Source: Branchiostoma lanceolatum (lineage: Eukaryota > Chordata > Leptocardii > Amphioxiformes > Branchiostomatidae). From it: a stretch of DNA of 64,000 nt. Positions within the stretch are counted from its first letter, which is position 1; each line of letters starts with the position of its first letter. A program made the position numbers and the translations under genes. This document shows positions 31,215-51,727 of this stretch, one piece after another. Location of the stretch: the NCBI RefSeq assembly GCF_035083965.1, contig NC_089726.1:18667501-18731500 (forward strand). Direction: 5' to 3'. Under the pieces are notes generated by a model. The model did not search any database. It worked only from the letters and a program-made list of their open reading frames with translations, and was not told the DNA's origin.

Positions 31215-31496
31215 TAAAAAAATCAATGAACATCTCGACCATCCACTTTGCGATACATGCTTGTAACTCCCTCTTATTCCAAGAAGGGGCCAGAAATACA
31301 CATACGTGCATACAAATATATACAGAAGTTGTATACAGTAGAAAGTTATCTGTGGAATCATCGAAACAGTATATGGTTTTAGATACAGGTCCGTTTAACA
31401 GTTCTAGGCTGCATGTATAAACATTTGCTAAGTTTTCAACCAGCATCTTGTTTGGATAACAGATCGGATTTCTGGGATTCACAACAGTCACACAGG

Positions 31497-32675
31497 TCAC
31501 ACATGTGGAGTTTCTCGCCAATATAAGGTCTCAGATGTCTGCATATATGGAGCTATGAGCTGTCCTGTAACACTCCCCACACATGTAGGTTTCTCAGCAG
31601 TGTGTTTTACTACTCGATGCTGGTCGAAACTGTATTTCTGTGCAGCAGAATAGTCACACGGGTCACACTTGTAGGGTTTCTCTCCAGTATGACTTCTCAT
31701 GTGTTGGGACAAATTAGACTTCTGGCCTGTCCTGAACCCACTCTCACCAGTATGTGTTCTAGTGTGTCGGACCAAGTGAGACTTCTTAGTAGTTCTGTAC
31801 CCACACTCCCGACACAAAAAGGGTTTCTCTCCTGTATGAGATTTCATATGGTCGGATAAGTGAGACTTTCTAGCTGTCCTGTGAGACCTCATATGGACAG
31901 ACAAGGAATACTTTTTTGCTGTCCAGTACCCACACTCCCCACACATGTAGGGTTTCTCACCAGTGTGTTTTACTCGATGGTTGTCCAAGCTGGATTTCTG
32001 GGCAGCAGAATAGTCACACTGGTCACACTTGTAGGATTTTTCTCCAGTATGAGATTTCATATGTTGGGATAAGTGAGACTTCTGAGCTGCCCTGTACTCA
32101 CACGCTCCGCACTTGTAGGGTTTCTCTCCAGTATGAGTTCTCATATGCTGGGATAAGTGAGACTTCCTAGCGGTTCTGTACCCACACTCTCCACACACGA
32201 AAGGTTTTTCTCCTGTGTGAGATTTTATGTGGTCAGATAAGTGAGACTTATGTGCTGTCCTGTACCCACACTCCCCACACATGTAGGGTTTTTCTCCAGT
32301 GTGAGATTTCATATGGTCGGATAAGTGAGACCTCTGAGCTGCCCTGTACCCACACTCCCCACACATGTAGGGTTTTTCACCAGTGTGAGATTTCATATGT
32401 TCAGATAAGGCAGACTTCTGAGCTGCCCTGTATCCACACTCCCCACACATGTAGGGTTTTTCACCTGTGTGTTTTAGGACATGCCGTTTCAAGTTAGATT
32501 TGATACTGGCAGAATAGTCACACTGATCACACTTGTAGGGTTTGTCTCCTGTATGCGTTCTCATGTGTTGGGATAAGTTAGACTTCCAAGGTGCCGTGTA
32601 CCCACACTCCTCACACATGTAAGGTTTCTCACTGGTGTGTTCTTGCTCTTGGCATCGATATTTGGAATCGGCCAT
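31497..32675 (-). CDS. C2H2 zinc-finger protein, copy 6
   Basis: Predicted nuclear DNA-binding protein of 392 residues starting at ATG 32,675 (MADSKYRCQEQEH). It has eleven complete C2H2 fingers plus two units that have lost their cysteine pair (HRTARKSHLSDH and ESGFRTGQKSNLSQH). The second lesion is shared with copies 1 and 9. The frame ends in the family's frameshift-derived tail. A TCTTTCAG acceptor lies just upstream, and a donor-like GAAG/GTAAAT at about 32,996 would define a 300-bp leader intron that here contains a small MITE. Confidence 0.87.
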   Translation of the reverse strand: MADSKYRCQEQEHTSEKPYMCEECGYTAPWKSNLSQHMRTHTGDKPYKCDQCDYSASIKSNLKRHVLKHTGEKPYMCGECGYRAAQKSALSEHMKSHTGEKPYMCGECGYRAAQRSHLSDHMKSHTGEKPYMCGECGYRTAHKSHLSDHIKSHTGEKPFVCGECGYRTARKSHLSQHMRTHTGEKPYKCGACEYRAAQKSHLSQHMKSHTGEKSYKCDQCDYSAAQKSSLDNHRVKHTGEKPYMCGECGYWTAKKYSLSVHMRSHRTARKSHLSDHMKSHTGEKPFLCRECGYRTTKKSHLVRHTRTHTGESGFRTGQKSNLSQHMRSHTGEKPYKCDPCDYSAAQKYSFDQHRVVKHTAEKPTCVGSVTGQLIAPYMQTSETLYWRETPHV

Positions 32676-32968: not shown

Positions 32969-33282
32969 TTCAACCAACATATATGGAGAAAATTTACCTT
33001 CAAGTTTCATGAGCTGCAGCATCATGCTTAGTTTGAAGCTTATTGAGTATTTTGTAAAAACGTTCACAGTGCACTACTGCAACTTAACATCTATAAGAGA
33101 CTCAGAGTGGAGGTTTGTCACAGACACCCTCCCCAATGACTGTCAGGCTTCAAACACATTGCGTACAGTAACCCCGTTTTTTCAAACATGGAAGACACTG
33201 TTATCCTCCACGCGGTTTTGCTGAAATCTAGCCTACAGATAGCAAGGTGGCTCTGTATCCATCACAAGCAACAGTATACATT

Positions 33283-35287: not shown

Positions 35288-36908
35288 CCCTCATAGAGTC
35301 AATTCCATGTCACCGAGAGGGTTTTCAGGTAATATTGCTAGTGAGTTCAAACAATTTTAGATAAAAGACTATTCAAGTCAAAATAGTTCTAAATTGTTCA
35401 AACAATCAAGAATGAAAGTTTGAACATGTTTGAACTTATTTATATATGTTGGAACTATTTGGAAAGTAATTGCACAAATATCTCTTTATTTAGAACAATT
35501 TTCAAACATCTATGTGATTGTTTCACTGTTCAAACATGTTGGAACAATTTGCATCATTTTTCAAATGGTAGATTTGGGTTATTGCCCCCATAAAAGTAGG
35601 TGCTAATCACACTCTATTGTCTGCCTCTGTATATTTTTAGATTTCACGTCTGGACTTTTGTCTTCAGGTGTCTATGCATGGCACCCAGGCCTAATCCCCT
35701 ATACTTTGAAGGGATGTGTGAATTGCCCTGTTCCCATCCCACTGACCCAGTTATACCATGTTGTTATGATGTTGGAACATGTAGGAACAAATGATCAACC
35801 TATTTTCCAACAGTTTCGAAAATAATACAAATAACATGTGCAATGTTAGAAATTTGTCTAACATGTTGGAACACAGCAGAAACTATTTAGAACATCAAAT
35901 GAATGTTGGAAATTGTTCTAAACAGTCACTTATCTCCCTTAGATTGTTACAAAGGTTTTGCAAATGTTAGAACAAAAGGCAACAAACACCCTCTCGGTAA
36001 TGTGGAATCGACTCTACACCCGAACCTATTTTTGCGACCAAAATGACTGAACGGGGTCAAAGATGACCCCAAAATGTTTTGTTCAGTAAAATCTCGCTTT
36101 TCACTTTTTTCACTGATTGTTATCCATACATTGCTTCATCAATGTAAGAGAAATGTTTTGGCATCTTAAGATATGAATAATTCCCGTTCATTTTCATAAT
36201 TTATGCAAAAACATCAGAAGGACCACGTCTTGAACTATTCCTATTTAGACCGGGAGGGGATTTTTGAGGCCCATGCCAAATTTCATGTTGCATAACTAAT
36301 GAACAGCTTACGCGAGAGCCACCAATCTTGATGGCTATCATAAAATGTCCTTAACAAAAATTTCAAATTGTTAAAGTGAGTTCATCGTTTTTCGTGTTGC
36401 CATAGCAACGGGTTTTTGACAAACTTTGTTGTTACGCTAAATGTATTTTCTTACATTGTTATCATCTTATGTAATCCAATGTAACTCTTATGATTCAACA
36501 TTGATATTTCATGCTGATTTGAAGACGTCATCCGTCATAATCCGATGGCGGATAGAATCCCATAAAATTACGTCATAATGACGTCATATTACGTCATATC
36601 AATTCAGATGTCATCATCCTCTGACAATTTAGTGGTCATACAATAAGTTGTTCAGGACTTACAGAGGGCAGGTCTCAAAAACAGCACATTATTTTTGCTG
36701 GGGCAAAAAATGACCCCAGTGGACTCATCAAAGACTTTCCTATACAACGTCAACAGTATTGTGCCCATCTCCCTAGAAAATTACGAGAGGTTAGAAAAGA
36801 TGTCTACTGACAAAGTCACGGAAGGATTTTTTTTCAGATGAAACATGTTAAAAAGCAGTCAAAATCCACGCCTGGGGTCAAAAATGACCCCACTCGGGTG
36901 TATGAGGG
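35288..36908. mobile_element. piggyBac-like element, copy B
   Basis: Same TTAA-type site, ends and inverted GGGGTCAAARATGACCCC words as copy A. It lacks the 1.09-kb internal segment of copy A but carries a mariner-like insertion eight bases inside its left terminus. No transposase frame is seen. Confidence 0.78.
35296..36014. mobile_element. TA-flanked Tc1/mariner-like MITE
   Basis: TIRs of about 27 bp, GAGTCAATTCCATGTCACCG on the left and GAGTCGATTCCACATTACCG on the right (minus strand), flanked by TA on both sides. The empty site CCCTCATACACCCG is intact in piggyBac-like copy A at 9,770. The 719-bp interior is rich in GTTGGAACAATTT-like words and has no transposase. Confidence 0.85.
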
Positions 36909-37129
36909 TCAATAAAATCCATCAAACGATAATGAATATAGTAAAAACATAACATGTCGACCGTTGACGAAGCATAACATTCATGGTAAAATTCCTTAAA
37001 TTATCCATAGGCAGTAGTAGTGGGCAACCTCAAGCCAACCGTACACACTCACGCCACATCTTCAGAAAAGACACTGGAGCCGCATATCCCTGTTTATGAT
37101 TTTATTCGAGCCCACACCTTAAATTATCC

Positions 37130-37600
37130 ATGTTAGGGATGACACAAGTTATCAGAAGCTAATCTTACATACATGCACATCTATTCTGCATTCTGTGCTT
37201 CGGTATGAAAAGTGCCTTAGCTGAAATTTGTACAGAAAAGTATTTTCATAAGACTATAGTTACTAGTTATATATTGTACAGGGAATTACATGAATTTGAA
37301 CAAAAACTATACATACATGCACATCTATTCTGCGTTCTGTGCTTCGGTATGAAAAGTGCCTTAGCTGAAATTTGTACAGAAAAGTATTTTCATAAGACTC
37401 TAGTTACTAGTTATATATTGTACAGGGAATTACATGAATTTAAACAAAAATTATACATACATGCACATCTATTCTGCGTTCTGTGCATCAGTATGAAAAG
37501 TGCCTTAGCTGAAATCTATACAGAGAACAATTTTCATAAGACTCATAGTTACTTATTATACATTGTACAGGAAAATACATGATTTTGAACACAAAACCAT
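37130..37600. repeat. Tandem zinc-finger 3'-flank repeats, three copies
   Basis: Three units with a period close to 144 bp begin near 37,170, 37,315 and 37,460. Because 144 is divisible by three, a frame stays open for 125 codons (37,205-37,582) with internal repeats, but the equivalent arrays at 17,140 and 13,370 do not keep it. I read it as non-coding 3' flank or 3' UTR. Confidence 0.75.
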
Positions 37601-38138
37601 ACAGTTTGGCACAATCATTGCAAACAGAATGGGGGAGACAAATCCTGCATTAAGTGTAAAATGAAGGCCCTCCAATTTTATGTTTTTGTTAAATACGATA
37701 TTTCTAATGATCTTATCCTAATCCATGGACTTCCCAACAATCCACTTGTTACATGCTCGTTAAGTTCTCTCGTTCCGATAGAAGAGGCACAAAATATATA
37801 TATATACAAGTAAATACAAAAGTTGTGCGGCAGGCTAATAGCCATGTATGCCTCTTCTATATGAGTTCTCATATATTGAAATAAGTCTGACCTCAATGTT
37901 GTCCCATACCAACACTCCTCACACATGCAGAGTTTGTTACCAAAAGTGGGTGTTTTACTCGATAGAAGTCAATAGCCGATTTCTGTGGGTTTTTTCTCTT
38001 ATAAGTTCTCCTGTGTTTAGATAAGAGAAGCTTCATGACTGTCCTGTACCTACACTCCCCACACGTGGTTTCTCAACGGTATGATTTCCTCGATGGCTGT
38101 CCAAGTCGGATTTCTGGAATTCAGAACAGTCACACAGG

Positions 38139-39287
38139 TCACACATGTGGAGTTTCTCGCCAATATAAGGTCTCAGATGTCTGCATATATGGAGCTATGA
38201 GCTGTCCTGTACCCACACTCTCAACACATGTAGGTTTCACACCCGTGTGTTTTACTACTCGATGGTGGTCCAACTGGGATTTATGGGCAGCAGAATAGTC
38301 ACACTGGTCACACTTGTAGGGTTTTGTTCCAGTATGAGTTCCCATATGTTGGGATAAAGTAGACTTCTGAGCTGCCCTGTACCCACACTCACCACACACG
38401 AAGGGTTTTTCTCCTGTGTGGGATCTCATATGGTCGGATAAGTGAGACCTTTTAGCCGTCCTGTACCCACACTCCCCACACATGTAGGGTTTCTCGCCAG
38501 TGTGATTTGCTCGATGTTGCTCCAAATTTGATTTCTGGGCAGAAGAATAGTCACATTGGTCACACTTGTAGGGTTTTTCTCCAGTATGTGTTCTCATATG
38601 TATGGATAAAGTAGAGCTCTGAGCTGTCCTGAACCCACACTTTCCACACATGTAGGGTTTGTCACCAGTATGCGTTCTCATGTGTCGGGCCAAGTGAGAC
38701 TTCTTGGCAGTTCTGTACCCACACTTCCGACACAACAAGGGTTTCTCTCCTGTGTGAGATTTCATATGGTTGGTTAAGTTAGACTTTCTAGTTGCCCTGA
38801 ACCCACACTCCTCACACATGAAGGGTTTCTCACCAGTGTGTTTCAATCGATGGTTGTCCAAACTAGATCTGTCGCCTGCAGCATAGTAACATTGGTCACA
38901 CTTGTAGGGTTTCTCTCCGGTATGAGTCCTCATATGTATCGATAAGGCAGACCTGTGAGCTGTCCTGTACTCACACACTCCACACATGTAGGGTTTCTCG
39001 CCAGTATGAGTTCTCATGTGTCGGGATAATTGATACCTCTGAGCTGCCCTGTACCCACACTCCTCACACATGTATGGTTTTTCACCCGTGTGTTTTAGGA
39101 CATGCTTGTTCAAAGCAGATTTGTTACTGGCCGAATAGTCACACTTGTAGGGTTTGTCTCCTGTATGATTTCTCATATGTTGGGATAAGTGGTCGCTATT
39201 AGCTGTCCTGTACCCAAACTCCTCACACATGAAGGGTTTCTCACTGGTATGTTCTTGTTCATGGCATCCATTGTTGGAATCAGCCAT
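38139..39287 (-). CDS. C2H2 zinc-finger protein, copy 7
   Basis: 382 residues from ATG 39,287 (MADSNNGCHEQEH); an alternative in-frame ATG lies three codons upstream, and the longer open frame beyond it is intron read-through past a TCTTTCAG acceptor near 39,300. Twelve finger units follow; the first two have each lost the second cysteine (CEEFGYRT, and a two-residue loss giving KCDYSASNK), leaving ten intact. It ends in the shared frameshift tail. Its upstream region is split by the PolB element, whose left end lies about 45 bp beyond the donor-like GAAG/GTAAAT at 39,444-39,447, so normal transcription may be altered. Confidence 0.85.
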   Translation of the reverse strand: MADSNNGCHEQEHTSEKPFMCEEFGYRTANSDHLSQHMRNHTGDKPYKCDYSASNKSALNKHVLKHTGEKPYMCEECGYRAAQRYQLSRHMRTHTGEKPYMCGVCEYRTAHRSALSIHMRTHTGEKPYKCDQCYYAAGDRSSLDNHRLKHTGEKPFMCEECGFRATRKSNLTNHMKSHTGEKPLLCRKCGYRTAKKSHLARHMRTHTGDKPYMCGKCGFRTAQSSTLSIHMRTHTGEKPYKCDQCDYSSAQKSNLEQHRANHTGEKPYMCGECGYRTAKRSHLSDHMRSHTGEKPFVCGECGYRAAQKSTLSQHMGTHTGTKPYKCDQCDYSAAHKSQLDHHRVVKHTGVKPTCVESVGTGQLIAPYMQTSETLYWRETPHV

Positions 39288-39490
39288 AGCTGTCATGTCT
39301 GAAAGATTAGCATTTGATAAATTAGCCACAATCAGTATTATGGGAATCACTTGATTGTTCTTATCACACCTGTATTATCGTAATACAACAATGTTACAAC
39401 AGAGAATAACAATATGCTTGCTAGCTGTCAGTATGGCATGAATTTACCTTCTAGTTTCATAATAAACTGCAACATCGTGCACAATTTGAA

Positions 39491-40333
39491 GGTACAACTG
39501 AAGGGTGGCTGAGGAGTTTTGGGATGTTATTGAAAAAAACCTTTATAAACCTTCCTTAACCTTAATTTTTTTTCAGGTAGTTATTTAAAGCAAGGTGATA
39601 ATTTATGCAAATTGGTATGACGTCATGATTACGTCATTAAGAGTAATAAGGCAACGCCCATTTTTAGAAAAAAAGTCTCTCCTTAGCTTGTACTTCGATG
39701 TTTATCAATATTACTTTGCAGGAATGTAAGTAGTATAGTATGCGGAGAAAGTTGCGCATTTCGGGCGGCGCCATCGGGCGGTGCAGGTCAGGGGTCACCT
39801 GGAGCGGAGAGCACCGCCCTAGTATATTTGTAGACATACGGATATGATTGCTTTAGTGTCTGACGTGTTTTTTTTATGGTCATGAAAGTGTATACGTATA
39901 CAGTAAATAAGAATTCCAGGGGTGTGTATATGTCTAAGAACTATGTATATGTCCTCCTCCCTTTATTTGAAGAGGGATGTATTCATATATCTATATCATG
40001 TGTGATATAGATGTATGAGTGCTCCCACCATCTGACAAGATGGAATGATGCCTACATATCATGTATGCATGTTTTCTTCTCCCTATTTCCTCCCCCTTTC
40101 TCGCCCTCCCTCCCCCTCCCTCCTCCAACGTCCATAGTCAATAAAGGCATTGTGTCAGTGGTAGTGGGCACATGTCATATCTAGTGTATACCGTTAGTAG
40201 TGTGTATGTCTTCCATATGTATAAATTCCCTCCTCCTCCAACGCCCATAGTCAATGAAGGTATTGTGTCAGTGGTAGTGGGCACATGTCATATCTAGTGT
40301 ATACCGTTAGTGGTGTGTATATGTCTTTCATGT
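39491..40333. repeat. Left terminal inverted repeat of PolB element
   Basis: Pairs with 46,937-47,826. The outer 55 bp and the inner 600 bp match well; the subterminal 39,545-39,720 differs from the other arm. The inner part contains a direct repeat of about 95 bp with a 113-bp period (starting near 40,123 and 40,236, landmark ATTGTGTCAGTGGTAGTGGG). Confidence 0.85.
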
Positions 40334-40393
40334 GTATACATGGCCTCCTCAAGGTAGGTATTGACCAAGGATTGATATATCTGTATTCTGTAT

Positions 40394-40708
40394 ATGTCAC
40401 ATTGTATACCTCTCCGGAAACGAAGTTATCGAACAAGTTTCGAACTCCTACACACGTATATTGAAAACACAGACTTCAACGAGAATGTTCGCTCCATCAT
40501 TTTAATGAATTCAGACACGGTTAACAATTGCTGTACAACATCTTCTTGTCTGCAGAAATGTATCAGTATTGCGCATTCCCTCTGCCCATTATACAAAGAT
40601 AGGATTATAATATACACAAAGCGATCGACATCTAGATCATTAGGTCCAGAAAGTATCAGAGACATCATCACGGGTACAGTACAGTACACATCAGATATTG
40701 AGTGGTAG
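40394..40708 (+). CDS. Small ORF of PolB element, unknown function
   Basis: A 104-residue frame begins just inside the left TIR and runs convergently into the polymerase gene, overlapping its 3' end by 18 bp. Composition is protein-like, with a cysteine cluster (NCCTTSSCLQKC) and a C-terminus GPESIRDIITGTVQYTSDIE. No domain is recognised and no membrane segment or signal peptide is apparent. Support comes only from its length, composition and compact tail-to-tail position. Confidence 0.45.
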   Translation: MSHCIPLRKRSYRTSFELLHTYIENTDFNENVRSIILMNSDTVNNCCTTSSCLQKCISIAHSLCPLYKDRIIIYTKRSTSRSLGPESIRDIITGTVQYTSDIEW

Positions 40709-43700
40709 GGTCGTGACACCGTCATTCAGCACTTGTCTTTTGGGATAGAAATAAGAAAAGGCATCCCTCGCTTGAGAGTACGTGAACATCTGATTATCTC
40801 TTACGCGGAATCCCCTGTTCATACCCTGGCCACTTTTCTGCGTTTCCAAGACGTTGAGATACGTTTGGAAATTAATCTCGTTGCCTTTCTTGCTGACTCC
40901 CTTACAGCTGAATTTGTCTTCATCATTTTCGTCTCCGCCGAAACAGTAATAGGTTTTGCTACACAAGCCCACAATACCATCCCCGGACCACTCTTCTTTG
41001 AACAGCCCGGGTTTGCGTTTGTCGAAGGCAGCATTCTCATGGGTGTCAGTGCGGGGAAACCAGAGATGTTTCTCTTTTCTGTACTCGTCAAGCATGTTTG
41101 GTTTGATGACGTCCTCAAACCTATCCGCCGAGATGGCGATGTAGGCCGAGTCCGTGTCCATCTCGCAATACTGGAAGTCCGAGCGGTCCACGAATTTGAT
41201 CATGAAATCATAGTAGAACTCCAGCATGCGGAGCTTCGCATATTGGTAGACAAAGAACCCAATCTGAAGAGGTAAGTTGAATTTGATCACTTTTTTCGTT
41301 AGCTGCATCTCGTAGAAGTCGTCAGTCACTTCGTCTGCGTGACGGAAGCGCGGAGTGTTGATTTTGCGCGTGGCAGTGACAGCATCCCTGCAAAACTCGA
41401 CATCCAGTTGTTTTTCTTTATTGGTGACGGTCTTACCGTAGGCCGAATTGCCAATAAGTTTCATCGTATCGGCAATGATCTTTTTGGTTTTGTCCCTGTC
41501 TCCGTCGCGACGAGCGTCGCTGACGCGGTCACCGAAAGCTCTGAAACACGCCTTTGGTACGTACTCGAGCACTTGGTAAACATGAGACACTACCAGACCC
41601 TTCTCCAAGTACCATTTCAGTAAGGGTGTAGCCAGAAGAATCTTTTCGCCAAACATACTGCCAATGAGAGATCGCCTGGGTTTGGTCATGATATTATTCG
41701 TCTCGGCATACTGTTTCATGAAGGGGCCAATGTCGTCGATAGAGATGTCGACGTTTTTGAAAATAGGTGGCATCTCTGCAAAGGCATTTTTGTGCGCTGC
41801 GGGGACGCTGATGTCGCACTCGACCACCCCAAACAATTTATCTGTACAGACAGCATGGAGAATTTGGTCTTCTGACATTTTGTACTTATTTTCAGTAGGT
41901 GTTTTGTACTGAGCCAAAAAGGTGGACACACTGGGATCACACCTTTGCAACCGGTGCCACTGACACTCCCACATTTCTGTCACCTTGTACCCCAACCCTC
42001 GCAAGTACTCTGTCGTCTGGATAGTTTTCTCGAATTTCTCTGACATGCTTTTGGCCGTAAGAACGTTGGATCGGTGTTTTGCCGTCAGTGGACAATTTTC
42101 GTGACCATGGAAGTAACACCCGTGAAACTGAAAGATTTCGCCCGTGTCCGAACAGAAGCCGTCCACGGGAATTTGCCGTGGACCGATGCGTTTCTCGGTA
42201 TTGTTGAATTTGTGCCGAATGACTTTGCCGTGCTGATCCCCTACCCACTCTAACCATTGTGTGGCCATGCGCCCGACACGTTGTGAGTATTCTCTCTTGA
42301 ATCCTTCCTCTGCCCTGCGGCGTATATAGCAACCAGTAGGCATGTCCTGCATCAGGGACCAGAGATATAGAGCGTTGGCGTCGTAACCAATCACTTTCTG
42401 ACATGTTTTGGGTTCCTTACCGCTTTCTCTCATCTCACGTTCCCGGATGCAAGTCACCCCTTCCTGGTGGTATCGGTGAAAAATGATACTAGGCCCACCT
42501 ACTATATTGTTCTTAAAGAGTTTGTACACGTCCTCGTTGTCCATGCACGTGAAATATGTGTCACCTAAGTCCATGAACAAGTATTTCATCGTGAGTCCCG
42601 GTACGCTAATGCCGTCTTTAAACATGTCGATCTGTCGGTCCTTGTAAAAGTCGGACATTCTCTGCACAGCGTCCAACATCGGCACCACGTCCTTATTGTT
42701 GTACCACGTCAGAAAGTCTTTCATTGTTTGCATGTTGTGGTCTTTCCACACTTCCTGGCAATAGGTGTAGTCCTCTTCGGAGATGTGTGTCATCTTCAAC
42801 TTGCTGTAGAAGGCTGAGGCTGGAGGTAGTTCCGTTCTTTCCAGTTTTTCGAGTGAATCCATCCATTCGTAGGGGAAGAAGCCTTTGGTCTCCGTACACC
42901 CGTACGCAGCCAGAACGGCTGCATAGCTAAAACCGGGGGCGACGTAATTGATCAGGTCTAGAAACTTTAAGTCTTCGGTTTCTATGGACATGAAGTCGTT
43001 ATTCCTCTTGATGGGACGAAGGCGGCTCTGCTGGTCGAAGAGGAGAGGGAAGAACACCTTCTTCATAGCATTTAGGTCATATTTGCCAGTATTGAAGCCG
43101 ATAACGACTAGTTGTCTCAGGTACCGGTCGTACTCATCCATCAGTTTAGTCAGGTAGTGCTTTTTGCGTTTTGTGTCTTGATCGGCGCCATCTACACTTT
43201 CATCTGATTCCTTCTCTCCCTCCACCACCTGTTCAAGGTCCCGTTGTCTTCTGCGTTCCATCTCTTCAAAGACCCATGCAACCCTTTGTCTTAGCACACC
43301 GTAGGCCGTACGGCTGATCTGCAGTAGATACTCAATCATGTCTTTTACGACCACGGAGGGATCGCCGTCAGAGACGAAGCACCGAGGTTTGGTGTACTCT
43401 GGGACGTTAGAGCAAGCACTCACGCTCAACAGCTCGTGGACCGCCTCCCACTGAAGTTTCGGTGTCTTATCGTCCTCCAGGGGTTTTAGGAGACATTCGA
43501 TGTCGTAGGTTGCACGGAAAGGATAGTACCGATCTTCTTGCGGTACGACGATTCCCTCGTCCTTGAGTTTCTCAAAGATGGTTGGTGGTAGATGGTAGGC
43601 TCCCCCAGGATACTCGTACCTTATTGCGCCGTCACATGTCAATTCGTGACGGTTGAGCTTATACGAATCCACCCACTTCTTTCCGCACTTAGGACAGGCG

Positions 43701-45064
43701 TAAGACTTTGCATATTTCTTGAAATCTTTGATGTAGCTGAAATGCGTTTGATACAGGTTCAGGTACATTGTGTCCTTATGCCTTGAGAGAGGGCGTCTTA
43801 TGAGCTCGGCAAAGTAATCATTCTCTTTGTTCGTCTCTTCGTCGTTGAGCTGAAGAGAGTACACATAAATGTTCAGTTGAAACAGCCTTTCCAACTCGTC
43901 AAGCATATTCAACGTCACGCCCTGAAACTTGTCCTTTGTCTTCCCCGTCTCTGTCAGGAATTTCTGAAAGTGTATCTTGGTGGCAGCCTCCAGATCTTTA
44001 GAACTACCGCCTATGTGCGTCACAAGACAGCGGAAAAAGCACAAGTTGTCGTGGTATGGCCCATGTGATCCACGGTGTAAGGGATCAACAGCTTTACTGT
44101 TCACGAGGTATGCAGGAAGGTTGGTGGCCGTGCCGATAGGATGTCCGTTCAGTTTGGCCACGAAAAACGTTGCGTTTGGAACTGCCTCAACAGTCCACTT
44201 GGAGTCTGGCCGCTGCTGACGAGCACATTCTAGAATGTCAATGGTAGTCACTTTGTCCAAGAAGTCTTTTATGCCACCTTCGTTTTCCACCAATACCGGT
44301 TTCTCAAGGAAACAATGGTTGTTCTTGCAAGCGTAATAGTACCGGAGTTCACCCGTTTCGCTGTTTCTCAGGATGAAACCAAACGACACACTTAGTTTAA
44401 ACGCTGTGTCTTGGTCGCGAAAGACGGCCCATACTTTGCTGGCCATTTCGTCGACGCTGGTGGAGTGTAGACGGAAGTTGTATTCGTCTTGGACTTTCCT
44501 ACCCCTCTTGAAGTGGGTGCGTATAGCATACCACTTTTCTCTGTACAGTTGCATTATGGCTGCGTTGTCCTGCTCGCCTTCTTCGTCTGGAGTAACCAGG
44601 TCGTCCCGTATTTCCAACGGGTCCTCTTGCAGAAGGACGGGGCTTTCCCTCCCCGATGCCGCATGATGTCGCGTTTGTTTTGAAGGGTTTTCATTTTCGT
44701 CGTCATTTTCGTGATTTCTTTTCACACTTTGTGACTGTAATGTTGAAGAGGTTGTTCGAATGTCGTGTTTTTGTAGATCACCTGTAGCTGACAGACTTTG
44801 GGGGTGATTCTTGTGAACACTTTGATGTTCTGTTAATTTGTCACTCCTAGCAAAAATCTTACCGCAGGTGTTACAAACATGTTGAAAACTGTTGAGAGTA
44901 CCGTGCTTCTTTTCGTGCCGTTTCAAGTTATCGCGGCGAGTAAAAGGGTCTCCACACACACCACAGCGGTAGGCGGGTGATCCACTGTGGGCCGATTGTT
45001 TGTGTCGGTTGAGCGAACGCTTTTGTTGGAACACTTTGTCACACTGGTCGCAAGGGAATGCCAT
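40691..45064 (-). CDS. Family-B DNA polymerase with zinc fingers and OTU-like motif
   Basis: 1,457 residues, one uninterrupted frame. Order: three C2H2 fingers (about 4-84), acidic linker, an OTU-like segment with DNLCFFRCL near 339-347 and a possible partner His in QTHFSY near 441, a fourth finger (about 457-477), 3'-5' exonuclease motifs ATYDIE near 521, GFNTGKYDLN near 657 and WYNNKDV near 790, then polymerase motifs GYDANALYLWSL near 894, KLIGNSAYGK near 1,202 and MDTDS near 1,304. An inserted FHGCYFHGHENC segment near 985 resembles one seen in Polinton-type enzymes. These are hallmarks of a protein-primed-type PolB, expected to copy the element's own DNA. All expected catalytic motifs are present. 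OTU assignment is inference. Confidence 0.9.
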   Translation of the reverse strand: MAFPCDQCDKVFQQKRSLNRHKQSAHSGSPAYRCGVCGDPFTRRDNLKRHEKKHGTLNSFQHVCNTCGKIFARSDKLTEHQSVHKNHPQSLSATGDLQKHDIRTTSSTLQSQSVKRNHENDDENENPSKQTRHHAASGRESPVLLQEDPLEIRDDLVTPDEEGEQDNAAIMQLYREKWYAIRTHFKRGRKVQDEYNFRLHSTSVDEMASKVWAVFRDQDTAFKLSVSFGFILRNSETGELRYYYACKNNHCFLEKPVLVENEGGIKDFLDKVTTIDILECARQQRPDSKWTVEAVPNATFFVAKLNGHPIGTATNLPAYLVNSKAVDPLHRGSHGPYHDNLCFFRCLVTHIGGSSKDLEAATKIHFQKFLTETGKTKDKFQGVTLNMLDELERLFQLNIYVYSLQLNDEETNKENDYFAELIRRPLSRHKDTMYLNLYQTHFSYIKDFKKYAKSYACPKCGKKWVDSYKLNRHELTCDGAIRYEYPGGAYHLPPTIFEKLKDEGIVVPQEDRYYPFRATYDIECLLKPLEDDKTPKLQWEAVHELLSVSACSNVPEYTKPRCFVSDGDPSVVVKDMIEYLLQISRTAYGVLRQRVAWVFEEMERRRQRDLEQVVEGEKESDESVDGADQDTKRKKHYLTKLMDEYDRYLRQLVVIGFNTGKYDLNAMKKVFFPLLFDQQSRLRPIKRNNDFMSIETEDLKFLDLINYVAPGFSYAAVLAAYGCTETKGFFPYEWMDSLEKLERTELPPASAFYSKLKMTHISEEDYTYCQEVWKDHNMQTMKDFLTWYNNKDVVPMLDAVQRMSDFYKDRQIDMFKDGISVPGLTMKYLFMDLGDTYFTCMDNEDVYKLFKNNIVGGPSIIFHRYHQEGVTCIREREMRESGKEPKTCQKVIGYDANALYLWSLMQDMPTGCYIRRRAEEGFKREYSQRVGRMATQWLEWVGDQHGKVIRHKFNNTEKRIGPRQIPVDGFCSDTGEIFQFHGCYFHGHENCPLTAKHRSNVLTAKSMSEKFEKTIQTTEYLRGLGYKVTEMWECQWHRLQRCDPSVSTFLAQYKTPTENKYKMSEDQILHAVCTDKLFGVVECDISVPAAHKNAFAEMPPIFKNVDISIDDIGPFMKQYAETNNIMTKPRRSLIGSMFGEKILLATPLLKWYLEKGLVVSHVYQVLEYVPKACFRAFGDRVSDARRDGDRDKTKKIIADTMKLIGNSAYGKTVTNKEKQLDVEFCRDAVTATRKINTPRFRHADEVTDDFYEMQLTKKVIKFNLPLQIGFFVYQYAKLRMLEFYYDFMIKFVDRSDFQYCEMDTDSAYIAISADRFEDVIKPNMLDEYRKEKHLWFPRTDTHENAAFDKRKPGLFKEEWSGDGIVGLCSKTYYCFGGDENDEDKFSCKGVSKKGNEINFQTYLNVLETQKSGQGMNRGFRVRDNQMFTYSQARDAFSYFYPKRQVLNDGVTTLPLNI

Positions 45065-45073
45065 GGTTCAACT

Positions 45074-45720
45074 GTGAAAATACAGAAGACATACCCTTAA
45101 GTTTTGTAATGAATTAATCTACGGGTTACTACGAGCATTGCAGGAAGATCGGGATAGAAATTCCGCACGTTTAGCTTCAATTGGGGCAAAACCGCTTGCA
45201 ATGTAAAATGTTTCGAATGATGGAATGCGTTACCTCGAAAGCCGTTGACTTACGCACAACTATATCTTGCTTTTCAAGGTTTGCCACAGAACCGAACACC
45301 TTGCTATTATCAGTTGTCTATACCGAAGGTTACCACAGACATTTGGCGACATTTTCCCCGCGTGCGAATCTGATTATCACAAAATGCGTATCAGATGGCC
45401 AAAGAAACTTTACGGACACGACAAGACAAAGGGGCTTATGTCCTCTACCGTTCGAAGGAAACTCGGCAACGCATGCACCTTCAGAACAAAATCGACGTAT
45501 ACATCTATGTTGGGTCGAGGAGAACCCAACATGATCAGATACAAAGAAACAGTGAAAAAAGACAGAAACAGGTTGCAGGCTTACCTCTTCGTAAATTTGT
45601 CGAAGTGTGATTTGCCTTTTCAACGCACTGATACGGACGTCCTTTCGCCGCAAGAGTCAATCAGCAACTGCCTGTCGTTGTTGTCCGGCTTCGTGGCTGT
45701 AGCCAAATTTATATAGTACC
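45074..45720 (-). promoter_or_regulatory. Presumed leader region of the polymerase transcript
   Basis: A minus-strand TATATAAAT at about 45,709-45,717 could serve the polymerase gene. A donor-like GAG/GTAAGC near 45,583 and an acceptor-like TATTTTCACAG ending at 45,072 suggest an untranslated leader with an intron of about 510 bp ending just before the ATG. This is a sequence-pattern inference. Confidence 0.4.
45383..45716 (+). CDS. Possible basic ORF of PolB element
   Basis: A lysine/arginine-rich reading frame (starting MRIRWPKKLYGHDKTKG) lies opposite the presumed leader of the polymerase transcript. Overlapping frames on both strands are about as long, so coding status is doubtful. No domain recognised. 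Confidence 0.2.
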
Positions 45721-46090
45721 GGGCTGACAGAGGACTTGTCCGGGCACGTTTGAGAAGGACAAAGGGATTACGTCACGAGGATGAGTAGTCTGTGCGACGC
45801 TGACAGTGCTGTCCGCGGCTTCAATAGGGCGAAGTTGGGCGTGTCGCAACAAGAGTAATTAAATGAGACTACAAGAATTACAACTACATAGCCGTCTGTC
45901 TTACCTGGCGGCCCAAGAACTAATCTACAATGTCCATTCCTATATCATGGAATGCCTGTAATATTACGATATTTACCTTTCTCGGTGGGAATTCTGTCTT
46001 TTTCAAACGAGCTGAAAATGTGTATTTGTGTCTATATCCAGTATGCGAGTTCTGCACATACAGTAAACATAAGCGGGCCATTATGTGAGG

Positions 46091-46098
46091 TATAAATA
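46091..46098 (+). promoter_or_regulatory. TATA box of acidic zinc-finger gene
   Basis: TATAAATA lies 50 nt before the ATG at 46,146, a normal distance for a short 5' UTR. With the opposite-strand TATA-like motif near 45,713 it makes 45,720-46,090 a shared divergent promoter. Confidence 0.6.
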
Positions 46099-46145
46099 CA
46101 GCTGTCGGGTAGAGAAAGAAATCATTTTCTCAGAGACCAGCGAAC

Positions 46146-46733
46146 ATGCCACACGTGTGTGACGACTGTGCTAGAGAATTTACTCGCATGGACAACTTGA
46201 GGCGCCATCAGCGAGAGCAGCACGCCGAGGAGTCAAGCGGTGGAACAAAGGACCGTGTCATGGACCCAGACATTTTTGATGACGACTCCAATATGTCATT
46301 TGAGTCCAATACAGAAATTCTCAGTTCATCGGAGGGGGAGGACAACGACGACGATGAAGAGATTGAGTCAATCACATCGGAAGATGATGAAGAAGAAACA
46401 GAAGATGATTCAGAAGAAACCGATTCTGAATCGGACGGGTCTGTGACAAGTTGTGAAGAGGGAGAGGAGAATGAAGAAGAAGAAGATGACGATGAAGGCG
46501 ATATGGAAGGCGAAGAAGAGTGGGCGCTTTACCGGGATTCGACCATTCTTCGACCTCTCAATGAAGGAGAAGTTCCTCAGCAAGTCCTCAAAGAGACCAG
46601 ACGATTTGGCAGAACGTTCTATCTAGTAGAATTCGCTTGGTTGCCCTACAACGGTACCACCATCATGTACGAGAAAAAATGGGTCTCAGAACAAAGTCTA
46701 CATAGGGATCATGGATACCTTGTACTGTACTGA
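46146..46733 (+). CDS. Acidic C2H2 protein of PolB element
   Basis: 195 residues. One C2H2 finger at the N-terminus (CDDCAREFTRMDNLRRHQREQH), a strongly acidic Asp/Glu/Ser middle (about 50-130), and a more hydrophobic C-terminal segment (RFGRTFYLVEFAWLPYNG, then KKWVSEQSL) that weakly recalls a chromo-type fold. The finger resembles the second finger of the element's polymerase (RRDNLKRHEKKH) more than the host cluster fingers. It could bind element ends or act as a regulator; function unknown. It has its own TATA box and polyA signal. Confidence 0.75.
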   Translation: MPHVCDDCAREFTRMDNLRRHQREQHAEESSGGTKDRVMDPDIFDDDSNMSFESNTEILSSSEGEDNDDDEEIESITSEDDEEETEDDSEETDSESDGSVTSCEEGEENEEEEDDDEGDMEGEEEWALYRDSTILRPLNEGEVPQQVLKETRRFGRTFYLVEFAWLPYNGTTIMYEKKWVSEQSLHRDHGYLVLY

Positions 46734-46772
46734 TATGACATAAACTCGTCTTGTCAAAGAAACATTGATAGA

Positions 46773-46780
46773 ACAATAAA
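46773..46780 (+). terminator. Polyadenylation signal
   Basis: AATAAA about 40 nt after the stop codon of the acidic zinc-finger ORF, in a compact arrangement typical of small elements. Confidence 0.6.
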
Positions 46781-46936
46781 GATAGCGTTAAAGATAAAAA
46801 AATTATTGTTGCCATGTTATCTTGACCGACATAAAGCGAATAAAAAAATTATGAGAACGTGTTTTCGTGTCCGGGAGTTTGAATGCGTTACTTGTGCTCT
46901 ATCAATAAGAAAAGGGACGGAGGAGGACATAAACAA

Positions 46937-47826
46937 ACATGAAAAAAACATATACACACCCCTAACGGTATACACTAGATATGACATGTGCCCACTACCA
47001 CTGACACAATACCTTCATTGACTATGGGCGTTGGAGGAGGAGGGAATTTATACATATGGAAGACATACACACTACTCATGATTAGATATGACATGTGCCC
47101 ACTGCCCACTGACACAATGCCTTCATTGACTATGGACGTTGGAGGAGGGAGCAAGGGAGGCATAACCTATGGAGGAGGGAGGGAAGAGGAAACATGCATA
47201 CATGATATGTAGGCATCATTCCATCTTGTCAGATGGTGGGAGCACTCATATTATATATCTATATCACACATGATAAAGATATATGAATACATCCCTCTTC
47301 AAATAAAGGGAGGAGGACATATACATAGTTCTTAGACATATACACACCCCTGATGAATAGGTATAATAGATGCATACATACTTATTTATTTACTATATAC
47401 TTATAAACATCAACAACCATAAACATACGTCACACATAAAAATAATCATATCCATATGTCTCCCAATATACCAGGGAGGTGCCACCCACTCCTGGTGACC
47501 CCTGACATGCACCTCCCGATGGCGCCTCCCGAAATGCGCCACTTTCTCCCCCTACTATACTACTAATGTACATGATAGTAATACATCAAGGATTTAGCGT
47601 GCCTATGTTTATATTTTGAAATGACGATTTTGGGCGAATTTTTATTTATTTATCAAAAATAAAAATAAAATATCGCCAAAAATTGTCATTTCAAAATATA
47701 TACATAGGCACGTATAATCCTTGATGTATTACTACCATGTACATTCCTGCAATGTTGAAAAATGTTTATAAAGGGTTTTTTCAATAACATCCCAAAACTC
47801 CCCAGCCACCCTTCAGTTGTACCTTA
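46937..47826. repeat. Right terminal inverted repeat of PolB element
   Basis: Inverted copy of 39,491-40,333, including the two 113-bp-spaced direct repeats (here near 46,975-47,035 and 47,085-47,150). It is interrupted by a 181-bp palindrome absent from the left arm. Scattered substitutions between arms show some time has passed since insertion. Confidence 0.85.
47565..47745. mobile_element. 181-bp palindrome within right TIR
   Basis: From AATGTACATG to its complement CATGTACATT the sequence is a nearly perfect inverted repeat with arms of about 80 bp around an A/T-rich centre near 47,655. The left TIR has simply GCAGGAATGTAAGTAGTATAG at this place (39,720), so this looks like a foldback MITE that entered one arm. 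Confidence 0.75.
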
Positions 47827-47834
47827 AGACAGTT

Positions 47835-50273
47835 AGTGTCTTACTGCAACGTGATGTCTTGAAGACAGTGGAGGTTTGTCACACACACAAATACATTGTA
47901 TACAATTACAAGCACATACATACATGCACACTCTCTCAGACAACTTAGGCCACGCCAATTCAATTTGTTGCTTCTCGGACTAGCCTGTCCTGTTTTTCCC
48001 ATTTGAAAAAAAAATGGGGCACTATTCCCATTCACAAATTTTAATATTTATTCTGTTGTAAAACTCAATAGCCACCAAAATGGATTATAAAGGCCTGCAC
48101 ATATCTAAAAAGTGTGGTCATATTGATCATAAGTCATATTTATTTATCAAAACTATCTCTTAATATCAATCCATATATTACATGACAAAAGGTTATTTTG
48201 TTACTGAAATTATAGTACTAGATCAAAGAAAGGGGTGCTTTGCATAAAATGTGCCATACAAAGCTGAAATTGGAATAATCCTCTTATGTTATGTAAACCC
48301 TTATCTTCACCCGACTACTTGCAAAAAATTGTACCGTTTTTCCCTGTCGCTCCGATTCTTTTCTGAAAAAAATCCGAGAAGCAACAAATTTTCCGGAAAG
48401 CCTTTCAAAGAGGGCGTGAAAAGCCGATACGCAGATTCTTTTGGCCTTTGAATCATTTATAGGTTGTATCCTATATATAACTCTCTATCCAAACAGATTC
48501 GATTTTCTTATTTCAGTAGTCCACTCTACTATACTTTTCACCGCGCGACGTCAAATCCAGTCACCTTTTGACCCTAACACATTACAAAATCCCATCGGCC
48601 GAAAGCTGTGTTCTGCTAACATTTCTGTGTTACATTTTTTGGGGGTCAACATTTTGCCCCCCCCCCCACCTCCCCATGAGCTAGTCAGTAGGGCTCATGT
48701 GCGTCGTGAGGTCGGGCTATAGTACTGTTTAGGACGGAATCAAGTCAGAAATTAAAATAATAAATTCTACCTTACTTTTCAACGTCTTTCGTACTCGTCA
48801 AAACACGACAAGTAGATCAAACTGCTGGAAAGACGTGGCCGCTCCTTTCCTCCCGCCCAGCGACGCAGATAGCTCAGAGTCAGTGACCCGTGTGAAGGTC
48901 AGTTGGGGTGAAATTGCGCCTGATTACCCACTGCAGATAACATAGTCAAGTCAAGTCAAAGTTGATTGCACAACGATTGTAACAGGTACAATGTAAGGCA
49001 AAAATAGAATACTACTGGCTACGTATACATATATCAAACTACTAAAAACTATAGGTAGGTTCTGTGCTATACAATGGTTAGCATATGTTCGCCGTGACAA
49101 TTTAGTCATGTCAGGTCTGGTCTTACCGACTTTGACGAACACACGCAAATCTATTTGCCTTTAAAGCATACATTTTGCAAAATTCAGCTTCGTCCTTCAA
49201 ATATGATGTTTAGAACTTCGAGCAAAGAGATTATTTTGTCGCCAAAAGCGACTAGGTATATTTATTCATTTATCTATTAGTATATCAATTCGAAGGCCCG
49301 GTGATCAGATCTTGGGTCAGGCAGAAACCGTCATGATTTTGCCCGAAGAATCTGCTTGCAGATGACTTAGTCTACAGTCCCCACACATTTTTTTATGTAG
49401 ACAATGCAGAAGTGTCGAAACTGAAAATTGACAGAAATAGTCACTTTTAATGAAATGTTAACAAGTGTTGACAAAACACGTATAGGAATATTCCGTTTAT
49501 ATATAGGCTATAAAGGAAGACAGAATTTATTATCGGTAACTTATCCTACAAACATGTAAAGTATTTTAGGTTGAATGCTTTGATACATACAGAGAGTGTC
49601 TTAGTTGCAATTTGGTCAGCGAAGTATTTTTATAAGATTTATACAGTAGTACACTAGTGCCATCACTAGTAGACAATTACATGACTGTACATGTATATCA
49701 ATTTGAGGACAAAGCTATAACATTAGAGCAGTAGTTCGAAATAAAATGGAGAGTTAGAAATTAATGGGACATATTCGGCCTCTGGTGTTAATATGAGCAC
49801 TCAAACTTCAATTTAACCGTTTTAGTACATATCATATTAAGACAGCCAAGCTAGTCACACATGTAATAACGATTGCAAGTTTACATACACTTTGCAGAAA
49901 CAAGTGAGACCAACTTAAACTTGAGCTTAAACGTGAAACATACTACATGTACAAAAGAATCTCATTGATAGTTTCCTTTTAGAGCCCAGAAATCTACATA
50001 CTAGTATGCATATGTATGCATAATGACCTATTTTATGTACAATTGTCCAAACGTTATCACACACATACTATAAAGTCTGTGGTATTAGATACAGGTCCAA
50101 CCAAGCTTTGGTCAACAATATTCCTCTCCTGCAAACAAATCACATTTGTCAAGTTTCCCCAACAGTGTCTTTTTCTGGATAACATTCATCCAAACCTAAT
50201 TTCTCTAAAGCTGCCAGACAGTCACATTTATTGGCAATGTACCTTCACATACACCTTAGAGATACATGATAGA
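47835..50273. other. Zinc-finger unit spacer, no gene
   Basis: Resumes the host unit interrupted by the PolB element, with similarity to 33,100-33,300 at first, then to 8,510-8,960 and 34,020-34,400 (48,600-49,200), and to 23,290-24,130 (49,310-50,170). A weak, worn finger remnant (minus strand, near 50,180-50,230) precedes the next gene. No complete gene seen. Confidence 0.55.
48945..49081 (-). mobile_element. LINE/SINE 3' end with (TTGAC)n tail
   Basis: About 137 bp flanked by CATA on both sides. Read on the minus strand it ends TTGCACAATCAACTTTGACTTGACTTGACT-like, a pentamer tail as in some CR1/RTE LINEs. The uninterrupted site is present at 34,345 (AACATATGTACGCC). Confidence 0.6.
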
Positions 50274-51209
50274 CTAACTTATCCTGAGAACTTGTCCTGA
50301 GAATGTCACATTTGTTGTTTTTTCTTCTGTATGAGTTCTCATGTGTTGGGATAAGTGAGATTTTTGTGTTGTCCCGTACTCACACTCTCCGCAAATGTAG
50401 GGTTTCTTATCAGTGTGTTTTACACGATGGTTGTCCAAGTTGGATTTCTGGGCTGCAGAATAGTCACACAGGTCGCACTTATATGGTTTTTCTCCAGTAT
50501 GAGTTCTCATATGTTTGGATAAGTGGGACTTTCTAGCTGCCCTGTGCCCACACTCCCCGCACATGTAGGGTTTCTCACCAGTGTGGTTCACACGATGGTT
50601 GTCCAAGTTGGATTTCTGGGCAGAAGAATAGTCACATTGGTCACACTTGTAGGGTTTCTCTCCAGTATGAGTTCTCATATGTTGGGATAAGTTAGACCTT
50701 TGAGCCGCCCTGTACCCACACTCCCCACACATGTAGGGTTTCTCACCAGTATGACTTAATAGATGGCTGTCCAAGTTGGATTTCTGGGCTGCAGAATAGT
50801 CACACAGGTCACATTTGTATGGTTTTTCTCCAGTATGAGTCCTCATATGTCGGGATAAAGCAGACCTTGTAGCTGCCCTGTACCCACACTCCCCACACAT
50901 GAAGGGCTTTTCTCCTGTGTGAGATTTCATATGGGCAGGTAAGTAAGACCTTTGAGCTGTCCTGTACCCACACTCCCCACACATGTAGGGTTTCTCACCA
51001 GTGTGTTTTAGTTGATGGCTGTCTAAGGTGGATTTCTGGATTGCAGAATAGTCACACAGGTCACACTTGTAGGGTTTTTCTCCTGTATGAGTTCTCATAT
51101 GCGATGAAAAGTGAGACCTTTTAGCTGTCCTGTACCCACACTTCTCACACAAGTAGGGTTTCTCACCAGTGTTCTTTGTCAGATGATGTCCACAGCTGGA
51201 ATCAGCCAT
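50274..51209 (-). CDS. C2H2 zinc-finger protein, copy 8
   Basis: 311 residues from ATG 51,209 (MADSSCGHHLTKNTGEKPY). I reject the longer start at 51,281 because a strong acceptor (CTTCTCATATTACAG) ends one base before ATG 51,209. Ten intact fingers strictly alternate GYRTA and DYSAA types, so this is the cleanest member. The end (TNVTFSGQVLRIS) comes from a one-base loss in the next linker. A donor CTAG/GTAAGG at 52,231-52,233 would give an untranslated first exon and a 1-kb intron. Flanks differ from the other copies, suggesting an older or separate branch. Confidence 0.88.
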   Translation of the reverse strand: MADSSCGHHLTKNTGEKPYLCEKCGYRTAKRSHFSSHMRTHTGEKPYKCDLCDYSAIQKSTLDSHQLKHTGEKPYMCGECGYRTAQRSYLPAHMKSHTGEKPFMCGECGYRAATRSALSRHMRTHTGEKPYKCDLCDYSAAQKSNLDSHLLSHTGEKPYMCGECGYRAAQRSNLSQHMRTHTGEKPYKCDQCDYSSAQKSNLDNHRVNHTGEKPYMCGECGHRAARKSHLSKHMRTHTGEKPYKCDLCDYSAAQKSNLDNHRVKHTDKKPYICGECEYGTTQKSHLSQHMRTHTEEKTTNVTFSGQVLRIS

Positions 51210-51727
51210 TCTGTAATATGAGAAGACAAAACTTTCAAAAGGTAAAAAAAGGACTTCTTTCAATGATTCATTTCCATACACAACAGCAGGAAGACTAAGT
51301 TCATTCTAAAACAAATTGAAGGTGGAGGGGGGGGGGGGTGGTCTGGGAAGTCAGGCTTCCCTTACTGGGCCTTAAGGCTATGCATGGGAGTTTGGTTTCT
51401 AATGAAACTCGGTCAAATTGTGGGTGGGATTGAGGTGAGGCAACAGGTTATCATACTTAGGGGGTGGGGGGTTGCAGCAAGGAAGAGCTCCACAGAGACT
51501 GGTAGAAAATCCATCAATTATAAACAAAATCGCAAAGTTTTACAATATGATTTAAGGGGAGGGGTACAATAAAATTCATGGGGAGGGGTACAGGGGGAAA
51601 TAAAAAAAAACTGGAAATTGGAAGGGTCATGCACTGATCATGGTAGGGTCTAAAATTTTATGCCACAACATCAAAGTCACAGCAGCTGTCTCACACATAG
51701 TGGATGCATGACTGTGCTTGTATTTGT

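Follow-up and report, generated by a model that had tools for sequence, protein, structure and literature searches.

A compact lancelet element that probably represents a Polinton reduced to its polymerase and inverted ends

An 8,337 bp element (39489–47825, no strand) in the window, the 64,000-nucleotide stretch of Branchiostoma lanceolatum DNA analysed here, is probably a Polinton derivative reduced to a replication module of terminal inverted repeats, a protein-primed polymerase and a small zinc-finger ORF. Polintons are usually 15–20 kb in size and encode integrase, ATPase, protease and capsid proteins as well as a protein-primed PolB. The element is a discrete insertion with an intact polymerase gene of characteristic domain plan, a homologue of which has a Polinton context, and it lacks recognizable integrase, ATPase, capsid and protease genes. 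A preliminary description had offered two alternatives: either a Polinton had been stripped down with its polymerase retained, or the element belongs to a separate class. The former is supported by a relative with 45 % identity in a tubeworm Polinton gene set and by a domain plan of the polinton/adintovirus type. Loss of the integrase and virion block is the best reading, and nothing in the analysis needs a separate class.

The insertion is considered discrete because three paralogous host sites in the same window (14935–15075, 27460–27600 and 32972–33111) lack the element across the insertion point. The inverted ends, and the resumption of host homology on both sides at these empty sites, define its boundaries to within a few bp; the earlier limits of 39491 and 47826 required correction, but the view of a discrete element stands. 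On realignment of the right flank, two paralogs match from 47835 on and the third only from 47867 on, and approximately 20 bp of host sequence is missing at the insertion point. Polinton/Maverick insertion generates a 6-bp target-site duplication. Comparison of the junctions with the paralogous sites revealed no duplication of at least 5 bp; one may have eroded, the flanks being 17–25 % different from the paralogs. The sequence is ACC-TTAA at the right junction and TTGAA at the left, and the element ends begin GG. The flanks are zinc-finger gene arrays, and no Rfam match at gathering scores was obtained in 36000–51000.

The terminal inverted repeats, delimited by repeat arms and alignment, lie at 39489–40328 (plus strand) and 46944–47825 (minus strand). 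At 0.84–0.88 kb they agree with the previous estimate of about 0.85 kb. Of the 841 ungapped columns in the full alignment, which also has 86 gap columns, 674 are identical, and the likeness is a mosaic that changes block by block: identity is 93 % in the outer 68 columns, 81 % in columns 260–447, 90 % in 475–700, 92 % in 700–760 and 98 % in 760–880. Columns 68–260 are unalignable (47 %), and here the right repeat contains a 181-bp inverted-repeat insert (47565–47745, no strand; 83-nt arms, 89 % complementary). The blocks are too unequal in divergence for the insertion to be dated from its ends. Two subterminal direct repeats (40119–40320, plus strand), each of 89 bp, 113 bp apart and 96 % alike, have partial counterparts at 46998–47040 and 47106–47148, and are candidate binding sites of the zinc fingers.

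The polymerase gene (40691–45064, minus strand) fills half of the 8.34-kb element and, as first described, is an uninterrupted family-B frame of 1,457 aa with conserved Exo and polymerase motifs. The product belongs to the polinton/adintovirus type of protein-primed family-B polymerases, with three C2H2 fingers, terminal-protein-like, OTU protease-like, exonuclease and phi29-like polymerase domains. The zinc-finger/PolB core had been recognized correctly, but the terminal-protein-like and OTU-like domains, and a Vsr-like domain, had been missed. On the minus strand, the N-terminal C2H2 fingers occupy residues 5–84 (44813–45052), followed by the terminal-protein-like domain (residues about 189–308; 44141–44500), the fold of which resembles the little-finger domain of Y-family polymerases and by itself makes this a candidate priming domain. 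The OTU protease-like domain (residues about 318–450; 43715–44113) carries D339, C342 and H441. Next is a fourth zinc finger, of C2HC type (residues 457–477; 43634–43696), with ligands kept in all 69 rows of an alignment of the window protein and 68 database relatives. The 3'-5' exonuclease domain (residues about 515–795; 42680–43522) was assigned from Exo motifs and fold, and motifs A, B and C and a KTY motif span residues about 893–1376 (40937–42388); structure searches and the alignment show the phi29-like fold and Exo I–III, A, B and C motifs to be present and conserved. Upstream of the gene is a TATATAAA box (45708–45715, minus strand), a consensus match only.

Changes private to the window polymerase number 18 (residues 500–1457), none of them at columns at least 80 % conserved, against 6.9 expected. 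Purifying selection has acted on its own branch, and there is no stop, frameshift or other sign of gradual decay. The preliminary description had argued that an intact polymerase is not the expected outcome of random decay, and the avoidance of conserved columns agrees with this. However, the same layout would result from a single contiguous deletion of what lies behind the polymerase gene, and therefore intactness alone is no proof of a separate lineage.

Between polymerase motifs A and B is the Vsr-like endonuclease insert (residues about 960–1063; 41876–42187, minus strand). The window polymerase matches phrog_13076 (endonuclease; E 1e-5). Among 28 relatives, the Vsr model PF03852 matches 10 at E up to 1 (best 4e-4) and TIGR00632, also Vsr, matches nine at E up to 0.01 (best 1e-4); neither matched the window protein itself at these limits. 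D968, C983, C991 and C1034 are kept in 69/69 rows and H986 in 68/69, and position 988 is H in 40 rows, C in 28 and D in one. The aspartate, histidine and zinc-ligand positions presumably correspond to those of Vsr, and we take position 981 (H in 50/69 rows, Q in 17, G in 2) to be its second catalytic histidine. Among phage records, the one match was weak and partial, to Salicola phage SCTP-2 (E 9e-3, 31.6 % identity, residues 963–1038), which coincides with the insert. Judged from the aligned sequences, this polymerase family carries the predicted nuclease as a constant component. The literature searched, including the papers listed in two broader searches (15 of 193 and 10 of 140), gave no printed record of a Vsr-like nuclease in polintons. 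The available text of PMC11071308 mentions homing endonucleases inserted in polinton polymerases, citing a nematode study, and a Vsr-type insert may already be in print there.

The relative with 45 % identity lies on tubeworm contig L001, where it adjoins genes for a packaging-type ATPase, an integrase with a chromodomain and an adenovirus-type protease. Genomic context was considered at length for this contig and over a short piece for L002. Although filed as a bacterial MAG, the tubeworm record is probably host DNA, as suggested by Lamellibrachia and Ridgeia matches of its capsid-like gene. The capsid label is our assumption from gene position and likeness, and Pfam and PDB profiles gave no confirmation of it; the best 120 of 3,500 matches of the capsid-like protein are from tubeworms and one snail (Littorina), with no lancelet among them. 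Among the matches listed, the proteins closest to the window polymerase are from Branchiostoma and group together in the tree. These are proteins only, with 93–94 % identity in B. lanceolatum (a cluster of five members) and 80–88 % in B. belcheri. The family is multi-copy, the largest cluster among the 120 matches listed having 499 members, and annotated animal genes are among the relatives. Comparison with adintovirus and linear-plasmid polymerases was based on structure searches, in which adintovirus polymerases are among the best viral matches. No relative was found in viral_contigs with the polymerase, two polymerase alignments, the capsid-like alignment or the L001 integrase as queries; the two polymerase alignments gave the same peptide patterns in this search.

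The sole other credible ORF of the element encodes 195 aa (46146–46733, plus strand), with one C2H2 finger, an acidic central part and an unassigned C-terminus. Matches to promoter and polyadenylation consensus sequences surround it (TATAAATA at 46091 and AATAAA at 46775), and no ORF as long was found in 300 mononucleotide shuffles of 45068–47825. No homologue was detected at E up to 1 among 1,291 word-sharing candidates. The C-terminus of the ORF product had seemed to resemble the integrase chromodomain, but comparison did not support this. Eight further short ORFs have no Pfam match, and, polymerase aside, no stop-to-stop frame overlapping the element exceeds 206 aa, a figure that leaves room for spliced genes. 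The accessory ORFs are small, as had been reported.

The reported lack of integrase and capsid genes was confirmed by tblastn, Pfam and frame lengths. With 11 proteins or protein pieces from the two tubeworm contigs as tblastn queries, the polymerase being left out, the window gave no match, the best E being 0.087 at a site outside the element. The L001 integrase reached E 0.45 outside and 2.0 inside the element, Pfam scans of ORFs gave no rve match, and no frame beside the polymerase is near 360 aa. The packaging ATPase gave E 0.087 in the window and nothing inside the element, the protease genes only 0.63 and 1.4, and the capsid-like genes 0.11–0.66 in the window and 0.66 or weaker inside the element. 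For an adintovirus hexon, the L001 capsid-like gene was the only query and gave no match, and no frame in the element is long enough. Pfam scans of 11 ORF queries gave no transposase match.

Replication of such a reduced Polinton can be envisaged as follows. The zinc fingers would bind the subterminal repeats, the terminal-protein domain would prime synthesis at each tip and the phi29-like polymerase would copy the whole unit by strand displacement, with the OTU domain releasing the priming domain. The Vsr-like nuclease may nick or cut DNA in initiation, resolution or integration, and is a concrete candidate for the activity by which such elements cut or integrate DNA. For an element without an integrase, entry into the chromosome was probably through end-joining by the host or through help in trans from a full-length relative; end-joining fits because there is no target duplication and host bases have been lost. 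The simplest origin would be one contiguous deletion of the genes behind the polymerase, as placed in the tubeworm relative. Several points count against this explanation: the inverted ends differ strongly in their middle, unlike freshly copied ends; position 981 is not histidine throughout the alignment, and the window protein matches neither Vsr model; the element tips lack short reiterations of the type known from protein-primed genomes; and the comparison draws on the context of one relative at length and one short piece, on a record filed as bacterial, on a capsid label that profiles did not confirm and on a single lancelet copy in DNA form.

A narrower form of this explanation, to which we give an even chance, is that a full-length lancelet Polinton gave rise, by internal deletion, to this one copy, which is immobile by itself and owes its intactness only to its youth. 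Relative to L001, the layout is accounted for by one deletion behind the polymerase gene, and the lack of gradual decay in the polymerase is in keeping with this form. Set against its youth, the gene is free of stops and frameshifts while the ends differ by 2–19 % in alignable blocks; the copy is therefore not young, provided that the ends were alike at insertion, and they may have differed before. It is possible, but rather doubtful, that the element instead belongs to a propagating lineage of capsid-free, integrase-free elements with a linear-plasmid-like life style and several lancelet copies, also a narrower form of the preferred explanation. The grouping of the Branchiostoma relatives at the identities given above, the purifying selection and the consensus matches around the 195-aa ORF favour such a lineage, but the lancelet relatives are known as proteins alone and the ORF found no homologue. 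Its fullest version, a lasting lancelet lineage of linear replicons in which one zinc-finger polymerase would recognize the origin, prime itself, free the primer by its own protease and cut by its own Vsr-type nuclease, with integration by host end-joining, seems unlikely.

Two readings outside the Polinton-remnant explanation are far less probable. Domestication of the polymerase for the host, with the ends as fossils, could account for an intact gene under purifying selection and for relatives annotated as animal genes; the multi-copy family and its place in the L001 gene set speak against it, and the empty paralogous sites show a mobile origin, so that we hold it to be very improbable. It is equally hard to credit that the ends derive from another cut-and-paste transposon, of TTAA type, by which a Polinton polymerase gene was captured. 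Elements of the piggyBac and Kolobok groups target TTAA, and the right junction and the GG at the element ends are suggestive, but the left junction shows no TTAA duplication, the Pfam scans gave no transposase, and ends of this length are Polinton-like.

Polintons are regarded as a pool from which eukaryotic viruses, transposons and plasmids arose. An intact polymerase between inverted ends, without integrase or capsid, would, if the reading is true, represent an extant intermediate on the way from virus to linear plasmid within an animal nucleus. With Polintons/Mavericks (Polintoviricetes) the element shares long terminal inverted repeats, a protein-primed polymerase with terminal-protein and OTU domains, and the polymerase family of the L001 gene set; it differs in its size (8.3 kb versus 15–20 kb), in having no recognizable integrase, ATPase, protease or capsid genes and in showing no target-site duplication. 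Linear mitochondrial and cytoplasmic plasmids have terminal repeats and a protein-primed polymerase but no capsid, as here. In contrast to them, the element is integrated in a nuclear chromosome, and has zinc fingers and a Vsr-like domain. According to the available text of PMC11071308, cytoplasmic plasmid polymerases also carry an OTU domain and mitochondrial ones do not; the OTU-like domain and the flanking zinc-finger gene arrays thus set the element apart from mitochondrial plasmids.

Loss of the virion block is already known. In the portion of their survey available, Krupovic et al. (2014; PMC4028283) found that nine of the Polintons without capsid genes had lost the capsid, protease and ATPase genes in concert, a loss that the present element has in common with them; it also lacks an integrase, the state of which is not given there for those nine. 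The survey excluded elements below 10 kb as incomplete (PMC4028283, same portion), and the element thus falls in a size range dropped by at least one survey. Adintoviruses (PMC11071296, as far as available) likewise have an OTU-bearing polymerase, but the present element has neither an integrase with a chromodomain nor a capsid-sized frame. Family B2 polymerases of Entamoeba are Polinton-derived genes, as here, and one is active in vitro with strand displacement; they are treated as genes, and the abstract of PMC3511435 names no terminal repeats and no nuclease insert. The likeness to Vsr mismatch endonucleases consists of profile matches in the relatives and of the conserved aspartate and zinc cysteines, and the difference is that the insert here belongs to a polymerase, lying between its motifs A and B.

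The inverted arms at 39489-40328 and 46944-47825 match one another, as expected from the preliminary description of an element bounded by terminal inverted repeats, and the single large open frame also described there is confirmed on the minus strand (40691-45064, 1,457 codons without a stop). Alignment of the arms gives 93% agreement in the outer 68 columns and 98% in columns 760-880; the interior includes one block that is just 81% alike and another, of 192 columns, that is unalignable. Within this latter block, the right arm holds an inverted repeat (47565-47745; arms of 83 nt, spacer of 15 nt) that looks like a small nested transposon. The element ends (39489-40350 and 46930-47825) are mosaic, near-identical blocks adjoining blocks of about 81% identity, a pattern that would not be the expected outcome of copying one end from the other. 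A blastn search of the element against the window (E up to 1e-5) gave no further copy, whole or partial, beyond the element's own limits.

The product of a second ORF (46146-46733, plus strand) has a single C2H2 finger and is acidic in its middle part; the ORF is preceded by a TATAAATA box at 46091 and followed by AATAAA at 46775. It exceeds every ORF obtained from 300 mononucleotide shuffles of its region, and a database search that scored 1,291 candidates gave no homologue. An ORF of 104 aa (40394-40708), for which a Pfam search gave no match, runs in the opposite direction into the polymerase gene's end.

Zinc-finger gene arrays flank the element, and paralogues of the flanks are present elsewhere in the window. 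Three of these paralogous sites (14935-15075, 27460-27600 and 32972-33111) cross the insertion point without the element, which is a discrete insertion. On the left, host likeness ends at 39493, the last bases, AAGGT, being assignable to host or element; on the right it restarts at 47835 for two paralogues and at 47867 for the third. In the paralogue at 14935, the left and right limits (15003 and 15032) are 28 bases apart; the window retains at most nine of these, unaligned, so about 20 bp have been lost relative to this paralogue. No direct duplication of at least 5 bp was found at the element ends. Loss of host bases together with microhomology would be the expected trace of end-joining of linear DNA; an eroded target duplication is also possible, since the flanks diverge from their paralogues by 17-25%.

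Arrays of C2H2 zinc-finger genes, repeating every 84 bp, recur across the window (1762-2489, 12488-13072, 18027-19397, 26066-27231, 31837-32641, 38139-39350 and 50274-51281), several with related flanks. The same queries matched both 31480-32140 and 63330-64000, and both 29827-30008 and 62775-62956, with equal or nearly equal scores, which suggests duplication within the window at a spacing of about 32-33 kb.

A scan of prokaryote species genomes matched two contigs of one tubeworm-symbiont MAG, L001 (QGON01000029.1) and L002 (QGON01000009.1). In L001 (11.8 kb) the polymerase gene comes first, with 45% identity to the window protein over residues 64-1401, and is followed on the same strand by genes for a packaging-type ATPase, an integrase with a chromodomain, capsid-positioned ORFs and an adenovirus-type protease. 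The capsid label is based on gene placement, profile searches having given no confirmation. In L002, the polymerase end faces the same kinds of genes on the opposite strand. Both contigs are filed under the bacterial symbiont genome of Escarpia laminata, yet carry Polinton genes, and are probably host or virus contamination; L001 appears to be tubeworm host DNA, because its capsid-like gene matches Lamellibrachia and Ridgeia proteins.

No recognizable integrase or capsid gene was detected in the window element, in line with the preliminary description. Eleven further proteins or pieces from L001 and L002 gave no tblastn match within the 64-kb window, the best E value being 0.087 (ATPase, 18391-18561, outside the element) and the best inside the element 0.45, over nine residues. 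Apart from the polymerase, no frame overlapping the element exceeds 206 aa from stop to stop, a count that spliced genes could escape; the L001 integrase and capsid-like gene are 360 and 437 aa, respectively. In the window, 363 bp separate the polymerase stop codon from the nearer repeat's inner edge; L001 has its other genes in this position. One deletion behind the polymerase would produce such a layout.

The polymerase protein search gave 1,300 matches, and the named species among the 120 listed are lancelets, sea stars, sea cucumbers, a sea urchin, a brittle star and a sea anemone. In a quick 70-row tree, the nearest to the window protein is a B. lanceolatum protein (93-94% identity), then two B. 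belcheri proteins, all within a nine-member lancelet group (SH-aLRT 98-100). The B. belcheri polymerase genes Bbelb_373570 and Bbelb_373300 (database relatives P0002 and P0003) each lie on a contig of 867,499 bp; they probably share one contig and are possibly neighbouring copies. Between the window and B. lanceolatum proteins, 60 of 957 aligned positions differ in residues 500-1457. When seven lancelet proteins are used to polarize these differences, 18 are assigned to the window protein alone and 24 to the other B. lanceolatum protein alone, with 18 left ambiguous. No window-private change falls in a conserved column (at least 80% in the other 60 rows), where 6.9 would be expected; the other protein has six such changes, against 9.2 expected. 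The window copy has therefore been under purifying selection until recently, as would be expected of an active or young element, whether the selection acted in compact elements or in full-length ancestors.

Polymerase residues 980-1063 match the endonuclease family phrog_13076 (profile search, E 1e-5), as do 19 of 28 family members tested. Ten of the 28 match Pfam Vsr (E up to 1, best 4e-4) and nine TIGR00632 vsr (E up to 0.01, best 1e-4); the window protein matches neither at these limits. A structure search against viral models matched a Fadolivirus 'restriction endonuclease type II-like' protein and an unnamed protein (117 and 122 columns, 29-30% identity, rmsd 2.4-2.8); from its length, the matched stretch is predicted to be the Vsr-like insert. 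In a tblastn search, residues 963-1038 weakly matched a phage protein. In 69 aligned rows, D968, C983, C991 and C1034 are invariant and H986 is present in 68; position 988 holds histidine in 40 rows and cysteine in 28, either a possible zinc ligand, and position 981 is histidine in just 50. These positions would correspond to the catalytic and zinc-binding residues of bacterial Vsr. Within the polymerase, the insert sits between motifs A (895-900) and B (1202-1210), an interval that contains the TPR1 subdomain in phi29 polymerase. The L001 polymerase has VDG, GCYYHGC and WEC motifs in unchanged order; since this tubeworm Polinton also carries the insert, the insert predates reduction of the window element.

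Judged from its domains, the protein would most likely recognize the subterminal repeats with its N-terminal zinc fingers and prime at the element tip with its terminal-protein domain, and its polymerase would copy the element by strand displacement. Release of the primer would fall to the OTU domain, and the Vsr-like nuclease would cut during initiation, resolution or integration. The junctions and the absent gene suggest integration via host end-joining or an integrase acting in trans.

The literature searched (best-ranked matches, with few subscription papers) gave no report of compact polymerase-only Polintons or of a Vsr-like domain in a Polinton polymerase. The element may be an isolated deleted copy or may represent a lineage. 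Polintons are already known to lose their capsid genes. In one survey (PMC4028283), full-length capsid genes are given for 46 of 72 Polintons and split ones for 13, and nine elements free of capsid genes also have neither protease nor ATPase; the survey left out elements below 10 kb. Capsid-less Polintons are placed among capsidless elements in PMC4981718.
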